DNA of 46,432 nucleotides from a virus. Shown here piece by piece: positions 5,543 through 42,638 of this stretch. The first letter of the stretch is position 1. Every line of letters starts with the position of its first letter. The notes beneath the pieces are model-generated. The model worked only from the letters and a program-made list of their open reading frames with translations. It did not search any database and was not told the origin of the DNA. The DNA is taken from the IMG/VR virus record IMGVR_UViG_3300038455_000038, positions 1 to 46,432 of that record. One strand, 5' to 3'. Position numbers and translations under genes: made by a program.

Positions 5543-5571
5543 ATTATAAGGGAGTATGCACCGGATGTCAA
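5543..5571 (-). promoter_or_regulatory. Strong leftward sigma-70 promoter
   Basis: On the minus strand, a perfect TTGACA (5571-5566), a 17-bp spacer and a perfect TATAAT (5548-5543). It faces the leftward early operon. Its -35 lies inside one arm of an inverted repeat shared with the rightward promoter. Confidence 0.9.
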
Positions 5572-5624
5572 GACGCAAAGCCCCCAATTCATGGGAGTTT
5601 CACGAGTTGCTTGACATCCGTTGC
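5558..5624. promoter_or_regulatory. Inverted-repeat operator candidate shared by the divergent promoters
   Basis: GCACCGGATGTCAAG (5558-5572) and CTTGACATCCGTTGC (5610-5624) are reverse complements at 14 of 15 positions. Each arm covers the -35 of one promoter plus the next 8-9 spacer bases. Conservation beyond the -35 hexamer suggests a protein binding site. One regulator could therefore control both arcs. The HTH protein at 5690-5917 is the obvious candidate. Confidence 0.6.
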
Positions 5625-5638
5625 GAAGCGACTATAAT
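5611..5638 (+). promoter_or_regulatory. Strong rightward sigma-70 promoter
   Basis: A perfect TTGACA (5611-5616), a 16-bp spacer and a perfect TATAAT (5633-5638). It drives the HTH gene at 5690 and probably the noncoding RNA region and replication genes beyond. Confidence 0.9.
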
Positions 5639-5689: not shown

Positions 5690-5917
5690 ATGCCGCCTAA
5701 TGGTACTTTTTCCGCTCTGGCTCGCAGTATGAACCTCACCCCGGCAGCTTACGCGCTGGCGCTGGTTAAGGCGCACCACAGCATCAACGCAGCATCCAAG
5801 GCGAGTGGGTTTGCGCGGGGTACTATCGCGTGGCATTTGGAGCACGCTGGGATTAAGGTCAGGGTGGAACAGCGCTCCGTTGCGATCATCACGGAGCCAG
5901 AAGAAACAACCGCGTAG
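5690..5917 (+). CDS. Small helix-turn-helix DNA-binding protein
   Basis: A 75-aa protein. Residues 23-55 read as a helix-turn-helix: the helix VKAHHSINAASKASG, then FARGTIAWHLEHAGI as turn and recognition helix. The pattern resembles Fis-type or resolvase-type HTH domains ('..i.aAa..lg.sr.ti...l...Gi'). It is the first gene after the rightward promoter, which suits a regulator acting on the 15-bp inverted repeat between the divergent promoters. I chose ATG at 5690 with GAAGGG upstream; a GTG at 5675 is the alternative. Confidence 0.7.
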   Translation: MPPNGTFSALARSMNLTPAAYALALVKAHHSINAASKASGFARGTIAWHLEHAGIKVRVEQRSVAIITEPEETTA

Positions 5918-6054
5918 TGTAGGGAAACACGCCGCTAACAAGCGGAAATCCCGACTGTTCAAGGGGTCGGGCGCGGTTTTACCCCCTCTTCGTCACGGTC
6001 CAGGGGGTAACCGGCGGGGATGACACAGCAGGCCCCGCCCCATCTAACAATCAT

Positions 6055-6136
6055 GCGGATATGGCGGAATGGTAGACGCAACCGACTTAAAATCGGTGGC
6101 TCCTGAAGCATACAGGTTCAATTCCTGTTATCCGCA
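6055..6136 (+). tRNA. tRNA-Leu (anticodon UAA)
   Basis: Cloverleaf: acceptor GCGGATA (6055-6061) pairs perfectly with TATCCGC (6129-6135), with discriminator A at 6136. The D arm is GCG/CGC with GG in the loop. Anticodon stem ACCGA/TCGGT encloses loop CTTAAAA, giving anticodon TAA. A short variable arm (GCT/AGC stem) marks a class II tRNA. The T arm is ACAGG-TTCAATT-CCTGT. CCA is not encoded. It probably supplements a host Leu tRNA for UUA/UUG codons. Confidence 0.93.
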
Positions 6137-6365
6137 CGAGGCCGAGGCCCCGCGCCTGAAAGGGTGCAGCCAATGACCAGCATCGACGTTTCATTGAGGC
6201 TATCTGGCCGCGAGTTTTCCACCGACTACTAGGGACACTTGAACTGAGGTGGTCGCAGCTTAAAGCGGGGCACACAAATTGATGGGTCGGATCGCGCGTG
6301 GATACTGATCGCCACTCATAAAGGCCCGACCCGGCGGGTAATCCGGGACTTTAACAACTTCATAC

Positions 6366-6572
6366 GGGGCGGCGGCGTGATGGGATAGACACGCTTGCAT
6401 TGCGGTGCTGCGAAACGCTGTGAGACGGTATAACCCTGGCTAGTATGGGCCGTAGAGGGAACGCAGTAGAATCGGGTCGGTTATCCTAGGCACTAACCCA
6501 CGAGGCAAGGCGCAATGCAGTACACAACGCAGCGTTAAGGTTGGTTAATCGGTTCGAGTCCGATCCGCCCCA
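6366..6572 (+). ncRNA. 207-nt RNA with tRNA-like ends and a long internal insert
   Basis: The 5' end GGGGCGG (6366-6372) pairs perfectly with CCGCCCC (6565-6571), followed by A (6572) and CC. Directly inside the 3' strand is a canonical T arm: ATCGG-TTCGAGT-CCGAT (6548-6564). A D-arm-like element GCGT...ACGC (6375-6394) has GGG in its loop. Next, TGCATTGCG (6396-6404) pairs perfectly with CGCAATGCA (6511-6519), closing off 106 internal bases. Another 28 bases lie between this helix and the T arm. It could be a tRNA with an intron-like insert in the anticodon loop, a tmRNA-like molecule (too short, no convincing tag frame), or a new tRNA-mimic. Confidence 0.6.
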
Positions 6573-7053
6573 CCTACCCCGTCGTACAGTTTAGGCCATG
6601 CGCAAGTTGGCTATAGCGGGGTATTTATAGAAAACGGGCGTCGTGCTGCCGACAGGCTTAGCAGTAAAGATCGGGGAACTAGCCCACCCCCATCCTGGAC
6701 CCGACCAGTATCCAAAATCGGGCGCATTGGTTTTGCACCGGCCCTGTGAACACCCTGAATCCCTTCCTTATCACCCGCCGTCCGGTTTCTGTAGACCCCT
6801 AGACGCTGACCTGGGTACATATGCACAAAGCTGGGTTAAGCGCGACGCTCCAATGATCGCAAGATGAGAGGGGTGCGGGGATTACCATCTTGACGCTGCT
6901 GAGGCCGCTGGCGGAACGTAGCCGCCCCAAGTCCCGCGAAATAGGGAGCAAAACCGACAACGTACTGCCGAGAGGTAGACTTTTCGGGGACAAGCACAGT
7001 GTGGCGGCCAGCGCAGCGATTATCGTAAACTTAGTTCGAGGGGCAATTTAAAG

Positions 7054-7296
7054 ATGAACAAGAATAAGATTGAGAAACAGCAGAACCGCAATAACCCGGA
7101 TCGTTTTGTTGCCAAGTGCTGCGTTTGTGGCAAAAGCGCCGCCAGTGTTCACGGCTATTTTTGTGCGTCGTGCTGGAATGAGATCGGTGCTGAGCAGCAG
7201 AGTAGCATTAACGAAGCCATCCGGCGGGGTGATATCGCCGGGGATCACCGGACATTCACGACCAGACGGAAGTGTGGCCGGAATGAGCAAGGCTGA
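7054..7296 (+). CDS. Small zinc-ribbon protein
   Basis: An 80-aa protein. CCVCGK at about residues 22-27 and CASCW at about 37-41 form a four-cysteine zinc ribbon, followed by a charged helical tail. A GAGGGG ribosome site lies about 13 bases upstream of the ATG, which is rather far. It is the first protein gene after the structured RNA region. Its 3' end overlaps the next start by 14 bases. Function unknown. Confidence 0.65.
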   Translation: MNKNKIEKQQNRNNPDRFVAKCCVCGKSAASVHGYFCASCWNEIGAEQQSSINEAIRRGDIAGDHRTFTTRRKCGRNEQG

Positions 7297-27017: not shown

Positions 27018-28193
27018 GTGACGCTTGTGAATAACCCGATCAAAGTTCTCATTTTTGGCGACGTAGCAGTACCGACCGGCTTTGGGCGTATCGGGGCCGC
27101 CATTGGCAAATATCTCGTGGCACATGGCTATCAGGTTCTGGGAGCGTGCATCCAATATGATGGCCTGCTGCCCCCGCCTACGGGCGTCCCTTTCTTTGTG
27201 GCATCGCTGGCGGGCAAGGATCACGGACAAGCCATTAACGGAATTTACAACGCCTTCAGGCCGGATGTCGTGCTGAGTTTGCAAGACTTCCCCTACCACC
27301 TCATGTTGCACGAGGCCACCGGGATCGACTGGTCGACGACGGCGCATGTGGTGATCACTCCGATAGACGGCGCTCCTGTTGCTCCTGAATGGCTGTCCAG
27401 CGCCAAAACATATGACAGCCTGTTTACCATCTCGGAGTTTGGGGTTACAACCTTACGTGAAGCCGGACAGCGCGCGCTGCTGTGCCCGCCGGGCGTTGAC
27501 GCAACCGAATTTCGCCCGCTTCCATCTGAGGAACGCGCCGCACTGCGAGCCAAGTTGGACATACCCACTGATGGGTATGTGGTAGGCGTTATGGCAATGA
27601 ACCAGGGGCGTAAGGACTTCCCCGCCATGCTGTCTGGGTTCGGGATTGCCTTTAAGGACGTACCCAACGCTTACCTCTATCTCGATTGCGATGATCGCAG
27701 TCCGGCGGGGTGGTGGCAATCATCCTGGTTATTCCCCCAGATTGGAATTGATCCCGCACGAGTGCGATTCCGAGAGGCGGCGATCCGCTCCGGGGTGATC
27801 AGTCTCAATGAGCGCTATAACCTGTTGGATCAACACATGGTGATTTCCATGCGGGAGGGGTTCGGCTTGCCCCACATTGAAGCACTGGCAGCCGGCGTTC
27901 CCACCTGTTCAACCCTCTATTGCAGCGGGCCGGAAGTGACCCAGGACGGTACGGTTGGATTGCTAGTCAAGGCCGAACCTTTCCGCCCATCCACCTGGGG
28001 CGGGGCAATGGATTGGAACGCCGATATAGTCGATCTGGCAGCCAAACTTCGTTGGGCCTACGAACATCCCGCCGAACGCGCGGTAATGCGTGAGCGCGGA
28101 TTGGAATATGCCAAGTCACGTACCTGGGAGAAAGCAACAGCGGTTGTAGAGCAGGAAATCAGGGCCGTGCTAGAGAAGAGGGGCAAGAAATGA
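27018..28193 (+). CDS. Glycosyltransferase, GT4-like (GT-B fold)
   Basis: A 391-aa protein. The N-terminal Rossmann part has VLIFGDVAVPTGFGRIGAAI (a 'tGfg' donor-side loop). The C-terminal part has MREGFGLPHIEALAAGVPT, the GT4 'E.fGlp..EAlA.G.P' signature with its EX7E-type glutamates, and HPAERAVMRERGLEYAKSRTWEKA at the end. It would move a sugar from a nucleotide-sugar to an acceptor. It is the first gene of a four-enzyme cassette inside the virion cluster. GTG start at 27018; GTG at 27027 also possible. Confidence 0.85.
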   Translation: MTLVNNPIKVLIFGDVAVPTGFGRIGAAIGKYLVAHGYQVLGACIQYDGLLPPPTGVPFFVASLAGKDHGQAINGIYNAFRPDVVLSLQDFPYHLMLHEATGIDWSTTAHVVITPIDGAPVAPEWLSSAKTYDSLFTISEFGVTTLREAGQRALLCPPGVDATEFRPLPSEERAALRAKLDIPTDGYVVGVMAMNQGRKDFPAMLSGFGIAFKDVPNAYLYLDCDDRSPAGWWQSSWLFPQIGIDPARVRFREAAIRSGVISLNERYNLLDQHMVISMREGFGLPHIEALAAGVPTCSTLYCSGPEVTQDGTVGLLVKAEPFRPSTWGGAMDWNADIVDLAAKLRWAYEHPAERAVMRERGLEYAKSRTWEKATAVVEQEIRAVLEKRGKK

Positions 28194-28420
28194 CGCAATT
28201 CCATGCAGTGAAATGCGATCAATGTGGACAGGAGATGACACAACAATACAATTGGAAGACTGAAACCTATCTAATCCCTGATAATTGGATGACAATACAG
28301 TATGCTATTCCTAGCGGCGATCCGACAGCGTCGGTCTATCCCACTATTTACACTCGCGATTTTTGTTCGCTGTTCTGCCGGGACGAATGGGAAAAGAATC
28401 ATCGCAAGGTGACACGATGA
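28190..28420 (+). CDS. Small zinc-binding protein within the glycosylation cassette
   Basis: A 76-aa protein with CDQCG at residues 9-13 and CSLFC at about 59-63, forming one zinc knuckle pair. Between them is a Tyr/Pro-rich stretch. It overlaps both neighbouring glycosyltransferase genes by 4 bases, so it is translated with them. Function unknown. Confidence 0.55.
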   Translation: MTQFHAVKCDQCGQEMTQQYNWKTETYLIPDNWMTIQYAIPSGDPTASVYPTIYTRDFCSLFCRDEWEKNHRKVTR

Positions 28421-29184
28421 CCCTCCTGAGCGTTATCATCCCCGCCTATAACTGTCTGGCTGATGTGCTGCGGTGCAAGATGTCTCTTGAGCGCTACCGC
28501 TTCAATACTGACCGTGACGTCACTGAAGTGTTGATTCAGGATGACGCCAGCCCGGACTATGACGGCCCGGAGTTGTTCGGCATTTGCTGTCAACGCAACC
28601 CGGTAAATCTGGGGTTCCCTGGCAATTGCAACGCAGGGGCACGCCGCGCCTATGGAAACATTCTTCTATTTTTGAATCAGGATTGTTTAGCGCTAACCCC
28701 CAACTTCGACCGGGTGATCTGCGACTTCTTTGACGGCGATCCTGAAGTGGGGATCGTTGGTCCTACGCTGCTGTTTCCTGATGGCCGCGTACAAAGCGTG
28801 GGGGGCAGGTTCGATCTGAAGTGTCAGCCCTACCATGAATTCCTGGGAGCGTCTAACCTGGACTGGGAACCCATCAGCGTGCCCCGCCGCATGTCCTGGG
28901 TTACGGGGGCGGCGCTGGCGATCCGTCGTGAGTTGTGGGAGAAATTAGGAGGCTTCGATTTTGAATACGGTCGGGGCTACTTCGAAGATGCTGATTTATG
29001 TATCCGCGCCCAACTTCTAGGCGCGCAAGTCTGGCACCTGCCCACTGTGCGATTTCAGCACCGGGTAGGTAGCACCGGCGGTAATCCTCATTTCTCGCAG
29101 AATGCACAACTGTTTAAACGACGTTGGGTCGATACGGGCGTGCTTCTGCCGGATGTGCAGGCGGTGAAAGAGAGATTCTGGTAA
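28417..29184 (+). CDS. Glycosyltransferase family 2 (GT-A fold)
   Basis: A 255-aa protein. It opens with LLSVIIPAYNCLADVLRCKM, the GT2 'sviIp.yn' signature. VLIQDDASPD follows, then NLGFPGNCNAG and ILLFLNQDC as the DXD-equivalent. RRMSWVTGAALAIRRELWE, then FEDADLC ('W.tGa.l..rr' and the catalytic 'ED.Dl') mark the acceptor side. It is a complete, inverting-type transferase close to rhamnosyltransferase relatives. The start at 28417 overlaps the previous stop (ATGA). Confidence 0.9.
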   Translation: MTLLSVIIPAYNCLADVLRCKMSLERYRFNTDRDVTEVLIQDDASPDYDGPELFGICCQRNPVNLGFPGNCNAGARRAYGNILLFLNQDCLALTPNFDRVICDFFDGDPEVGIVGPTLLFPDGRVQSVGGRFDLKCQPYHEFLGASNLDWEPISVPRRMSWVTGAALAIRRELWEKLGGFDFEYGRGYFEDADLCIRAQLLGAQVWHLPTVRFQHRVGSTGGNPHFSQNAQLFKRRWVDTGVLLPDVQAVKERFW

Positions 29185-30095
29185 TGCGTATTCTCTTGAT
29201 TTACATTCATTACCCCTTGTCCAGCGGGCGATATTGCTCTGAAGCGCTCATTCGCATGGGCCACGACGTGCGCCACATTGGACCCTGTACCGGGCGTGAT
29301 ATTTGGGGAATCCAGGTGGATGAACAATACGTCTGGTTGCCTACCGAGATTGAGGACGGATGGATACCCGAACTGGTTATCCTTATGGACAGCGCGATTC
29401 AATTAGAAGGAAAGTTGCGCCACTTGTGGCGCTGCCCTCTAGTCGTCTACGGGGTCGATAACCATGTGCGCGATTACCATCAGTTCGATGGCATTGCGGA
29501 TCATTTCTTTCTGGGTCATGGTCATGGATTGCGCATAGGTGAACCCAATGTAACGTGGCTCCCTTGTGGCTACGATCCCGCCACCTTCACCCCCGGTCCG
29601 GCATGGAGCGAACGACCCACCGATTGGGCTATGATCGGTGTCAATTACGGACAGCGGAACGAACTAATCGGCCCATTGCTGAGTGTCAAGCAAGGCATCC
29701 GGGCCGCCTACGGGACGGGGTTGTTGTATGACGAGTATGCACAAGTCTACCAGGACAGCAAACTCTCCATCGTGCGCAGCGCGGCGGGTGATGTAGCCCA
29801 GCGAGTCTGGGAAACGGCGGCAATGGGCTGTCTGGTCGTGATGGATGAGTGTCCAGATTGCGCCGTCCTGGGATTGGTGGACGGCGAAAACTGCCTGATA
29901 TACCATTCCATTCAGGAGTGCGTTGATAAAGTACGTTGGACATTAACCCATCCCCACTTAGCAGAGGCAATGGCGCAGAATGGGCAGGAATGGGCGCAGT
30001 CGGGCACGTGGGACAACCGGTTACAGGTGATTATCGACTGGGCAGACTCCTTTGGAAAACCTGCCGACAAGCCGAGAAAGAAGAAAACTGAATGA
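29184..30095 (+). CDS. Glycosyltransferase, CgeB-like
   Basis: A 303-aa protein. It begins MRILLIYIHYPLSSGRYCSE, has LVVYGVDNHVRDYH and VTWLPCGYDPATFTP in the middle, and ends with a GT-B C-terminal pattern: SAAGDVAQRVWETAAMGCLVV, then DGENCLIYHSIQECVDKVRW. This resembles CgeB/spore-maturation-type glycosyltransferases ('R.fE..a.G.l.l.d...'). It is coupled to the GT2 gene by TAATG. Confidence 0.75.
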   Translation: MRILLIYIHYPLSSGRYCSEALIRMGHDVRHIGPCTGRDIWGIQVDEQYVWLPTEIEDGWIPELVILMDSAIQLEGKLRHLWRCPLVVYGVDNHVRDYHQFDGIADHFFLGHGHGLRIGEPNVTWLPCGYDPATFTPGPAWSERPTDWAMIGVNYGQRNELIGPLLSVKQGIRAAYGTGLLYDEYAQVYQDSKLSIVRSAAGDVAQRVWETAAMGCLVVMDECPDCAVLGLVDGENCLIYHSIQECVDKVRWTLTHPHLAEAMAQNGQEWAQSGTWDNRLQVIIDWADSFGKPADKPRKKKTE

Positions 30096-30877
30096 GGGGC
30101 GCACATCTGGGATGTGGAACCGTGATTTTACCCGGTGACAAACTGCCGGAGTCCTACCAGTTATTGCCATCTCATATCCTCTCGGACCCGGCCATTACAT
30201 GGGATAATGTAGATCGTAATCCCCAACCCGGCGTCAGTAAGTTGATCGACTTATTCAATTATCCCTGGGTAGGGCTGGATGACAACGCCTATGATTACGC
30301 GGTTTGTTCCCATCTGGTGGAACACATTCCACATGATCAGAACCATAACGGTGTGATCTCTCAGATGCACCCGGATTATCAAGACGGCTGGTTTGCTTTC
30401 TTTTCGGAAGCGTGGCGCATCTTGAAACCGGGGGGTAAACTCCTGCTGGCTATGCCCTACGCCTGGTCGAACAGCGGAATCAGCGATCCCACCCACACCC
30501 GCTATGCCACCATCGCTACGATGGCCTATTTCAACAACGCCGATGGTGATAAGTCCAGTTTTGCCTACAAAATGGGATCGCTGTGGGAACCGATCAACTT
30601 TGAACAGGATGTGATGTTTCACCCGCACATTTTGGCTCAGCAGGCTTTTCGGCGTCAACTCAACGTCCGAGAGGCAATGGACCTGTGGCTCTCGGCAGGC
30701 ACACATACGGGCATCAAGTCCGAATGGTATGACATGCTCGATATGAAAGAAGAGTGGACGCTCGAATTCCGCACAATATATTATTCATTCGTGTGGATGT
30801 CGGCTCAGACCAATCTTAACATGATCCCGGATTTTAGTATCGTGATGACGGCGAAGAAAGATGCAGATCAAGGTTAG
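30092..30877 (+). CDS. SAM-dependent methyltransferase (class I)
   Basis: A 261-aa protein. Motif I is AHLGCGTVILPG at the very N-terminus, WDNVDRNPQPGV holds the acidic motif II, and YDYAVCSHLVEHIP and EAWRILKPGGKLLLAMPY are motifs IV-VI. This arrangement is typical of glycan- or small-molecule-modifying methyltransferases found with glycosyltransferases. It could cap the added sugar. It overlaps the gp10-like tail gene by 17 bases, so the cassette is fused into the late operon. Confidence 0.82.
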   Translation: MRGAHLGCGTVILPGDKLPESYQLLPSHILSDPAITWDNVDRNPQPGVSKLIDLFNYPWVGLDDNAYDYAVCSHLVEHIPHDQNHNGVISQMHPDYQDGWFAFFSEAWRILKPGGKLLLAMPYAWSNSGISDPTHTRYATIATMAYFNNADGDKSSFAYKMGSLWEPINFEQDVMFHPHILAQQAFRRQLNVREAMDLWLSAGTHTGIKSEWYDMLDMKEEWTLEFRTIYYSFVWMSAQTNLNMIPDFSIVMTAKKDADQG

Positions 30878-41113: not shown

Positions 41114-41358
41114 TGATGAAGAAATCAGCACTCAAACAACGGATCGCCGAACTTGAGGCAGAAAATGCTGAACTTAAACGGCGCGTGGAGCAACTTGAAC
41201 AAATAAGCAAGATCATCGCATCACCCATTGCTCCCTATCCATATAAGACGGTCACTATCAAATCACCTGATACTGGCTACATTTGGTATCCCGATCCTGA
41301 CAGTACGGCATTTCCACCCCCTAAGCCAATGTGGAGAACATGGTGCAACACACAATGA
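41113..41358 (+). CDS. Hypothetical coiled-coil protein before the lysin
   Basis: An 81-aa protein. Residues 6-38 (LKQRIAELEAENAELKRRVE) are a clear leucine-zipper-like coiled coil, followed by a Pro/Tyr-rich tail. The start overlaps the previous stop (TGATG) and the stop overlaps the lysin start (ATGA). It might dimerise or bind the lysin. Confidence 0.5.
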   Translation: MMKKSALKQRIAELEAENAELKRRVEQLEQISKIIASPIAPYPYKTVTIKSPDTGYIWYPDPDSTAFPPPKPMWRTWCNTQ

Positions 41359-42638
41359 AAACAAGACTCTGGTTTACTCTCTGGTTTGTTCTTACCGGAT
41401 CATCCTTGCTGCTGATCAATGGCTACACGATTATCAGCGGCGCACAAAATATTATAGATGTCCCGACGACTACACCTACAGTTACCCGAAATATCGTCGA
41501 GATGACTATGCTGCTGGATGGCATCGTGCGCCAGTTTGACTGCATTGAGGCTACTCCCTGGTCTGAACCTACGCAGGAATCCGGCGATCTGCCCACTTCC
41601 ACCCCCACGCCTAGCCCTACACCGATCCCGCGCTGTTATGGGCTGGTCATTGCCACGTCGCTTAACGTCCGTTCCGGGCCGGGAACCGCCTACAGCGTAT
41701 CGACCACGCTCAAGATTATGGCTCAGGTGGACATCCTGAGCGCGGTAGTCAACGCCGGTGGTGAGACGTGGTACAGAATAACTAGCCCCGCCGGGTATGT
41801 GCTCAGCACCTATGTCACGATCCCGACTGATGCGGCGTGTAATTTGGCTGCCATGAGTGCCGCGCCGGTCAACAAGTTCGGGCTGCATCTTACGGTTGGG
41901 GCCAGTCAAGACGTGGTGTACGCCGCGCTGCCCAGAGTCGGACTGCTGAAAGGGACTTCTGGAACCGAGAATATCATCATCGGGGCGCGCAAGTTACGCC
42001 CCGATTTGTTAATCCTCTATCGCGTGATTGCGCCCGACTGCCCGCCCGGTTGGGGACAGGGGGACGCGCCGACGGTGGCCGATTCCTGGTGGAGCGCCAA
42101 ATACAGCCAATGGAAAGCGGCGGGGATGATCGGGATAGCAGATTTTTACGAACTGACGAATGAATGTGGATATGGCGGATCAGCTTTCGAGCGCGCGTTC
42201 TGGGGCCGGATGATCGAGCACGCCAACGCTGCGGGGGTCTGCTTAGCGCTGTTTTCGGACAGTTACGGAACACCTACCACGCTCGAATTCCAGTTCCGCG
42301 CGCCGATCTTGGACTTGGCGCTGGCGCAAGAGTGCAAACCGGGAAAACGCCATATTATTGCCATGCACAGTTACGAAGGGGTAAACAGTGGGGACTGGAA
42401 GTTTGGACGCTGGCGGCTATTCATGAGCACGATGGCCGCGAAATACAAGGCGGTTCCGATTGTGTTTACGGAATACGCTTACAATTCCGGGTCCGGGAAA
42501 GTGGATTGCGGGGCGCTATGGACGGATTGGGCACGGGCCGAAAGAGAATACAGCGCCGATCCGCAGGTGCTAGGGGCGCTGTATTTCAATGCGTCGCCGG
42601 TCGGGGGCTGGATGGATATTAGCTCTTGCCTGATTTAA
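41355..42638 (+). CDS. Putative lysin: N-terminal anchor, SH3b, clan GH-A-like glycosidase
   Basis: A 427-aa protein. Residues 5-27 are a hydrophobic N-terminal segment (signal or anchor). A Pro/Thr linker (TSTPTPSPTP) is at 81-90. A bacterial SH3 domain runs from about 95 to 158 (IATSLNVRSGPGTAYSV, then WYRITSPAGYV). A TIM-barrel-like glycosidase spans 175-427: YELTNECGY gives acid/base E270 in the 'NE' motif, and VFTEYAY gives nucleophile E373. This is unlike muramidases or amidases usual in phages. Position after membrane proteins suggests host wall or capsule lysis. The linker style resembles Chloroflexota proteins. Confidence 0.65.
   Translation: MKTRLWFTLWFVLTGSSLLLINGYTIISGAQNIIDVPTTTPTVTRNIVEMTMLLDGIVRQFDCIEATPWSEPTQESGDLPTSTPTPSPTPIPRCYGLVIATSLNVRSGPGTAYSVSTTLKIMAQVDILSAVVNAGGETWYRITSPAGYVLSTYVTIPTDAACNLAAMSAAPVNKFGLHLTVGASQDVVYAALPRVGLLKGTSGTENIIIGARKLRPDLLILYRVIAPDCPPGWGQGDAPTVADSWWSAKYSQWKAAGMIGIADFYELTNECGYGGSAFERAFWGRMIEHANAAGVCLALFSDSYGTPTTLEFQFRAPILDLALAQECKPGKRHIIAMHSYEGVNSGDWKFGRWRLFMSTMAAKYKAVPIVFTEYAYNSGSGKVDCGALWTDWARAEREYSADPQVLGALYFNASPVGGWMDISSCLI

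Follow-up and report, generated by a model that had tools for sequence, protein, structure and literature searches.

A probable tRNA-framed noncoding RNA in a 46-kb phage genome, and similar RNAs that recur in unrelated phages

Introduction

Several described RNAs resemble, in one respect or another, the phage locus reported here. Species 1 RNA of phage T4 (rnaC) is a small stable RNA of 139 nt encoded in the T4 tRNA cluster. GOLLD and ROOL lie in phage stretches that lack open reading frames and have a tRNA nearby, and the phage RNAs considered in comparison with them include those of ICP1 and phage K (PMC7567579, PMC9241854, PMC12286853). tmRNA joins a head made of an acceptor and a T arm to a large structured insert and has no anticodon arm, while intron-containing tRNA genes, of group I or archaeal type, are interrupted at the anticodon position. 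YrlA is a noncoding RNA with tRNA-like D, T and acceptor arms (PMC8394870).

The DNA that we analyzed is a viral record of 46,432 bases (IMG/VR record IMGVR_UViG_3300038455_000038, positions 1 to 46,432; the whole is called the window below), whose predicted proteins include those of terminase, portal and capsid-maturation genes and a DnaB-type helicase. An earlier note, made from the letters of this DNA, had drawn attention to positions 5918-7053.

Results

A gene-free stretch downstream of a sigma70 promoter

The stretch at 5918-7053 (1,136 nt, about 1.1 kb) carries no coding signal in any of the six frames. By codon scoring trained on the phage's own genes, the open reading frames inside it score between -0.20 and +0.01, against a gene median of +0.13, and the run of six-frame scores below zero from about 5850 to 7000 is the longest in the window. 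Four translations from the stretch had no match in Pfam. Together, the codon scores and the Pfam searches bear out the view of the earlier note that no credible protein gene is present, and its claim of a tRNA is confirmed as well: an ordinary tRNA-Leu(UAA) lies on the plus strand at 6055-6137 (Rfam, 64 bits), with no encoded CCA. This is the sole Rfam match, anything else at E<5 over the stretch being a reverse-complement echo of the same tRNA.

Small plus-strand genes flank the stretch on both sides. The upstream gene (5690..5917, codon score +0.06) has a product that looks HTH-like and that matched no Pfam family, and the gene that closes the stretch (7054..7296) encodes a zinc-ribbon-like protein with two CxxC pairs and a weak match to DZR_2, under the cut-off. 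Further upstream, a divergent pair of perfect sigma70 -35/-10 promoters (5543..5638, both strands, 12/12 matches each) stands between the left, minus-strand and the right, plus-strand early genes, and its elements form part of an 11-bp inverted repeat. The plus-strand promoter consists of TTGACA at 5611-5616 and TATAAT at 5633-5638, the minus-strand promoter of TTGACA at 5571-5566 and TATAAT at 5548-5543. Transcription from the plus-strand promoter (5611-5638) would cover the HTH-like gene and then the RNA stretch.

A blastn search with the whole stretch against phages, plasmids and 36 distantly related viral records returned nothing except tRNA-Leu. Relatives of the phage itself were sought through its zinc-ribbon-like gene, helicase, capsid, terminase, methyltransferase and endolysin, and none was close, the best terminase relative standing at 42%. 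Elsewhere in the window, positions 41331-42638 encode a bacterial SH3 domain protein behind a TPTPSPTP-type linker, probably a lysin; we take this style of linker to suggest a Chloroflexota host, and no genome relative was found. At 27018-30877, in the space that separates head from tail genes, three apparent glycosyltransferase-like genes and one apparent methyltransferase-like gene form a run that is unusual for a 46-kb phage.

Structure across the stretch as a whole

The folding energy of the 1,136 nt was -411.3 kcal/mol, compared with -417.7 +/- 9.4 kcal/mol in shuffles (z +0.68). Unusual thermodynamic stability was thus rejected by the shuffle comparison, with the exception of 5918-6054 (z -2.4), the only segment with an unusual folding energy; this hairpin-rich noncoding segment on the plus strand contains a 9-bp stem (5979-5987/6002-6010) and a 7-bp stem (6013-6019/6033-6039). 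Two further plus-strand noncoding segments, at 6138..6365 (z +0.37) and 6573..7053 (z -0.59 and -1.49), hold the hairpins at 6284-6332 and 6575-6623 respectively, each with 35 nt looped out by a perfect 7-bp stem. The stretch contains 5 perfect stems of 7 bp or more; shuffles have 2.6 +/- 1.7 and other segments of the same length 2.7 +/- 1.4. A long helix at 6894-6908/7004-7018 was rejected as being at chance level. The two hairpins that the earlier note had located therefore exist, but perfect stems are not in excess over chance, and a high degree of structure over the whole stretch is not supported, with the energy at shuffle level and the hairpins at chance.

The same note had raised the idea that 5918-7053 is in its entirety one large ornate RNA of the GOLLD or ROOL kind. 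The tRNA-like element described below would then be one domain of it. Size, the setting without open reading frames and the nearby tRNA all agree with this. The Rfam check that the note had called for, however, found no match to GOLLD, ROOL, tmRNA or group I or II introns even at E<5, the overall folding energy equals the shuffle mean, and the tRNA-like element has acceptor ends of its own, at which tRNA enzymes would cut it out. We consider a single 1.1 kb ornate RNA decidedly improbable.

A 207-nt element with the frame of a tRNA

Downstream of tRNA-Leu, the plus strand at 6366..6572 encodes a tRNA-framed element of 207 nt, recognized by ARAGORN with introns allowed, by a custom descriptor, by its fold and by a match to the model R1 described below. 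Its acceptor stem (6366-6372/6565-6571, GGGGCGG/CCGCCCC, 7/7 bp) is built from the ends of the sequence, and the D stem (6375-6379/6390-6394, GCGTG/CACGC) and T arm (6548-6564, ATCGG TTCGAGT CCGAT, with the loop at 6553-6559 and a 5/5 stem) follow in tRNA order. The discriminator A (A73) is at 6572, and no CCA is encoded. The minimum-energy fold of the segment recovers the acceptor, D and T arms unprompted. ARAGORN detects the element only when introns are permitted, calling a tRNA at 6366-6574 with a 121-nt insert (0/400 dinucleotide shuffles), and the custom descriptor picks out exactly two tRNA-type elements from the window, against none from shuffled DNA. With these results, the second tRNA-like RNA that had been proposed for the stretch is upheld and placed at 6366-6572.

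In its unspliced form the element has no normal anticodon arm of 5 bp and 7 nt, as judged by the descriptor. A 10-bp helix (6395-6404 with 6511-6520, plus strand) occupies the anticodon-stem position instead, beginning immediately downstream of the D arm (P 0.009, in comparison with shuffles, for a helix with this starting point) and enclosing 106 nt. These 106 nt (6405..6510, plus strand) form an insert domain, or payload, for which the minimum-energy fold predicts an inner stem at 6406-6412/6462-6468; we found no homologues of the insert sequence. Firm observations are the tRNA-like ends, the absence of a coding frame and the presence of a helix where the anticodon stem would be. On balance we judge that 6366-6572 is a discrete tRNA-framed noncoding RNA in which the anticodon arm has been replaced by a long helix carrying a folded insert.

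A different origin would be a chance insertion into a tRNA gene, the remains of which now decay in a functionless untranslated leader. An insert with no sequence homologue and the ordinary stability of most of the stretch would be expected of such a relic; against it, none of the three arms (acceptor, D and T) is damaged, the insert ends carry no flanking direct repeat of 6 nt or longer, the 10-bp helix sits exactly at the anticodon-stem position, and the architecture recurs elsewhere with covariation. Decay seems to us very unlikely.

The need for ARAGORN to allow introns, at its default score, also brings in a decoding tRNA-Arg(GCG) with a spliced intron of about 109-121 nt in its anticodon loop. 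Removal of 6405-6513 yields a 5-bp anticodon stem and a canonical UUGCGAA loop with the anticodon GCG, but the spliced form would have a variable region of about 27 nt, unusually long and unlike that of tRNA-Arg, and the insert matches no group I or II intron family. To our knowledge, about 110 nt is below the lengths of known self-splicing introns, and we know of no archaeal tRNA splicing endonuclease in bacteria. RtcB is absent from 20 records of the related RNAs described below, which argues against a ligase partner. Among 19 of those RNAs, joining the flanks restores an anticodon stem at no higher a rate than in shuffles (5/5 in 2 of the 19, with 22% expected), in a test that considered variable regions of 4-24 nt only and so cannot alone settle the 27-nt case of the window. 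Splicing is the less likely account of the window RNA, and we regard it as unlikely.

A recurrent class in viral contigs

Since the collections yielded no close relatives of the phage, we searched for the architecture instead, across 2.9 million viral contigs. The first pattern (GGGG/CCCC acceptors, D arm and T arm 140-170 nt apart) produced four viral loci, three of which (L062, L064 and L065) have complementary acceptors and no ordinary tRNA; L063 was rejected as an ordinary-tRNA coincidence. The second pattern, which asked for a Leu-type D arm and left the acceptor free, gave at least 120 loci; the patterns were chosen by hand, and these counts are not frequencies. Loci with tandem ordinary or tRNA-like genes (L150, L123, L124, L090, L075, L093, L175, L087 and L079) were excluded from the single-insert set, and among the matches listed 34 distinct hits with a single T loop were left after this removal. 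Acceptor halves are complementary at 7/7 positions in 14 of these 34 listed hits, all with 140-170 nt between D arm and T arm, whereas random re-pairing gives 0.62 (maximum 5 in 2000).

In an alignment of the ends of 18 sequences, the window RNA included, 98.6% of cells pair and 9 of the 12 pairs change on both sides. The 18 RNAs had been selected for acceptor pairing; the three outer T-stem pairs, which stood outside that selection, covary as well. A looser descriptor applied to all fetched loci recovered 55 extended RNAs (at least 97 nt) from 40 records with 29 different acceptors, and none from shuffled DNA. The anticodon arm is absent from 51 of these 55, and 47 of the 51 have a discriminator A. 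Most members of about 200 nt occupy an intergenic gap closely, as is expected of discrete RNA genes. Unrelated phages thus share a recurrent class of tRNA-framed RNAs whose acceptor halves covary.

At 207 nt and with no anticodon arm, the window element lies within the length range of the class (97-260 nt). The model R1, built from other phage tRNA-framed RNAs, matches it over its full length with 18.6 bits (E 0.006 over the window), a score far under the 43.2 bits of the window's ordinary tRNA-Leu, so the match reflects the frame and not the insert. The D arm of the window RNA, GGCGTGATGGGATAGACACGC, differs from the Leu-type GTGGCGGAA..ACGC of the first-collected members, although the GTGGCGGAA type was part of the search pattern and is not necessarily a defining feature of the class. 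With a D arm of another type and an insert that has no homologue, the window RNA is placed in the class by its architecture. Two loci with the D arm GGCGGCGTGGATAGACACGC or one near it were dropped, L185 for want of a matching acceptor and L186 because its T arm belongs to an ordinary tRNA-Thr, and the 'tRNA-OTHER' of Mycobacterium phage Myrna proved to be a suppressor tRNA of ordinary size.

Some viral contigs, up to 187 kb long, carry arrays of tRNA-framed RNAs of 85-206 nt (L129 8600-12202, L102 5300-10660, L094 2600-4450, L089, L148 and L121). Many array members have the acceptor AGTCAGG/CCTGACT with a different insert each, and ordinary tRNA finders miss most of them. On the reverse strand of L175, short hairpins with GGAAAGAC loops (GCTCGGAAAGACGAGC, CGGGGAAAGACCCG, AGCTGGAAAGACAGCT) are repeated between tRNA-like genes and may be signals for processing or termination. 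The wider set is not uniform, since L103 (3275-3403) resembles a tRNA-Leu(UAA) whose anticodon loop holds an inserted A+U-rich hairpin of about 47 nt, at what we take to be the position known for group I introns.

Cultured phages encode the same frame. Lactiplantibacillus phage Gut-P1 has it in an RNA of 114 nt and Leuconostoc phage phiLM33_01 in one of 107 nt, neither of them annotated. The T4-like Citrobacter phage Ci1 (OR515478.1; L197 517-751) has two adjacent tRNA-framed RNAs of 115 and 114 nt, the first with no annotation and the second annotated as tRNA-Pseudo-AAC. At the T4 locus, R1 gives a weak match inside rnaC; a comparison of T4 with the Ci1 pair found no sequence relation.

A subfamily with a covarying pseudoknot

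Six members (L174, L092, L077, L129, L114 and L096), here called subfamily A, have a common insert sequence with the consensus AAGUCRGGURAAYA .. AAAAUAWUAA .. ACUAA. Over the paired segments of their alignment, pairing holds in 99.5% of cells. Changes on both sides occur at 27 of the 37 pairs, where shuffles give 12.7 and slid controls 6-9. The alignment was made by hand and its segments were picked as complementary, which favors structure; the double changes across the six sequences are the evidence. Both helices of the subfamily A pseudoknot have several double changes, and its two 3' strands are separated by AA and lie near the T arm. Rfam found no family at the RNA in the subfamily A loci, and one member searched by blastn against 50,697 phage records had no match.

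The window RNA does not contain the insert sequence of subfamily A, and its match to R1 comes through the frame only. It does have a candidate alternative pseudoknot on the plus strand (6414-6422/6528-6536 with 6492-6498/6539-6545), with an AA spacer as in subfamily A, which crosses the 10-bp helix at 6395-6404/6511-6520. This candidate has p 0.125 unconstrained and p 0.023 with the subfamily layout, the latter imposed after a first look, and the likeness to the subfamily A pseudoknot is suggestive only.

A tRNA-like head with no normal anticodon and a structured body might also be that of a highly diverged tmRNA or of a bacterial Y RNA (YrlA). Neither Rfam nor ARAGORN matched the element to tmRNA, the class has D stems, and no common tag frame was seen by eye. 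In YrlA a basal stem is formed by the ends, but the ends of the present element are its acceptor strands, and Ro60/TROVE is absent from 20/20 records of related RNAs (a control genome was positive), which argues against a Y-RNA partner. Either identity strikes us as extremely unlikely. ARAGORN did report tmRNA genes on two viral contigs, L022 (1717-2176) and L145 (6560-6908).

Discussion

What the stretch contains is probably a kind of phage RNA that has been overlooked, and not one of the known giant RNAs. What the earlier note had described as a structured noncoding RNA beside a phage tRNA, maybe of a new class, survives as the discrete 207-nt element and not as an ornate RNA of 1.1 kb. Searches of Rfam 15 and of open-access literature on phage tRNA-like RNAs turned up no description of the class, which is weak evidence of novelty.

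We picture the following course for the window RNA. The early transcript from the perfect plus-strand promoter would be cut at the 6366-6572 RNA by host RNase P and RNase Z, CCA would then be added, none being encoded, and the stable product would expose the insert, the part that would do the work. Enzymes that act on tRNAs could bind or charge the tRNA head, or the head could serve as a decoy for host defenses that cut anticodons (anticodon nucleases); other candidate roles are those of a ligand of tRNA-binding proteins and of a carried regulatory RNA.

More broadly, phages may widely encode an unannotated superfamily of RNAs that have the acceptor, D and T arms but no anticodon, that carry inserts 20 to 160 nt long with many different folds, and that sometimes stand in arrays. 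The head would be a general cassette for maturation and stability, or would give access to tRNA-binding proteins, and the inserts would be the functional payloads. The window RNA would be among the largest kind. We see the case for this generalization as evenly balanced. If it holds, phage tRNA gene surveys and noncoding RNA databases would be missing an RNA class, because standard programs skip these genes or label them pseudo-tRNAs. The tRNA scaffold is used in the laboratory for RNA production; if the frame is a natural version of it, the inserts are ready candidates for phage regulatory or counter-defense RNAs. Subfamily A, with its six members and covarying pseudoknot, already offers a well-defined target, and orphans of fifty years' standing such as T4 species 1 RNA would gain relatives, making comparative and functional tests possible.

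Among known systems, GOLLD and ROOL share the setting of the locus, but the unit recognized in the window is a tRNA-framed RNA of 207 nt and not a long RNA that encloses a tRNA. Compared with tRNAs that contain group I introns, the window insert is too short and matches no intron family. tmRNA resembles the class in its head and large insert, and in having pseudoknots as subfamily A does; it differs from the window RNA in size (about 350 nt against 207), and the latter has a D stem and no tag reading frame that we could see. YrlA has tRNA-like arms, but its own ends make the basal stem that binds Ro60. T4 species 1 RNA is shorter than the window RNA and has an imperfect acceptor stem, with 5/7 pairs; its 3' end, with a perfect 5-bp T arm and a TTCGAAT loop, appears from these features of the frame to be related to the class.
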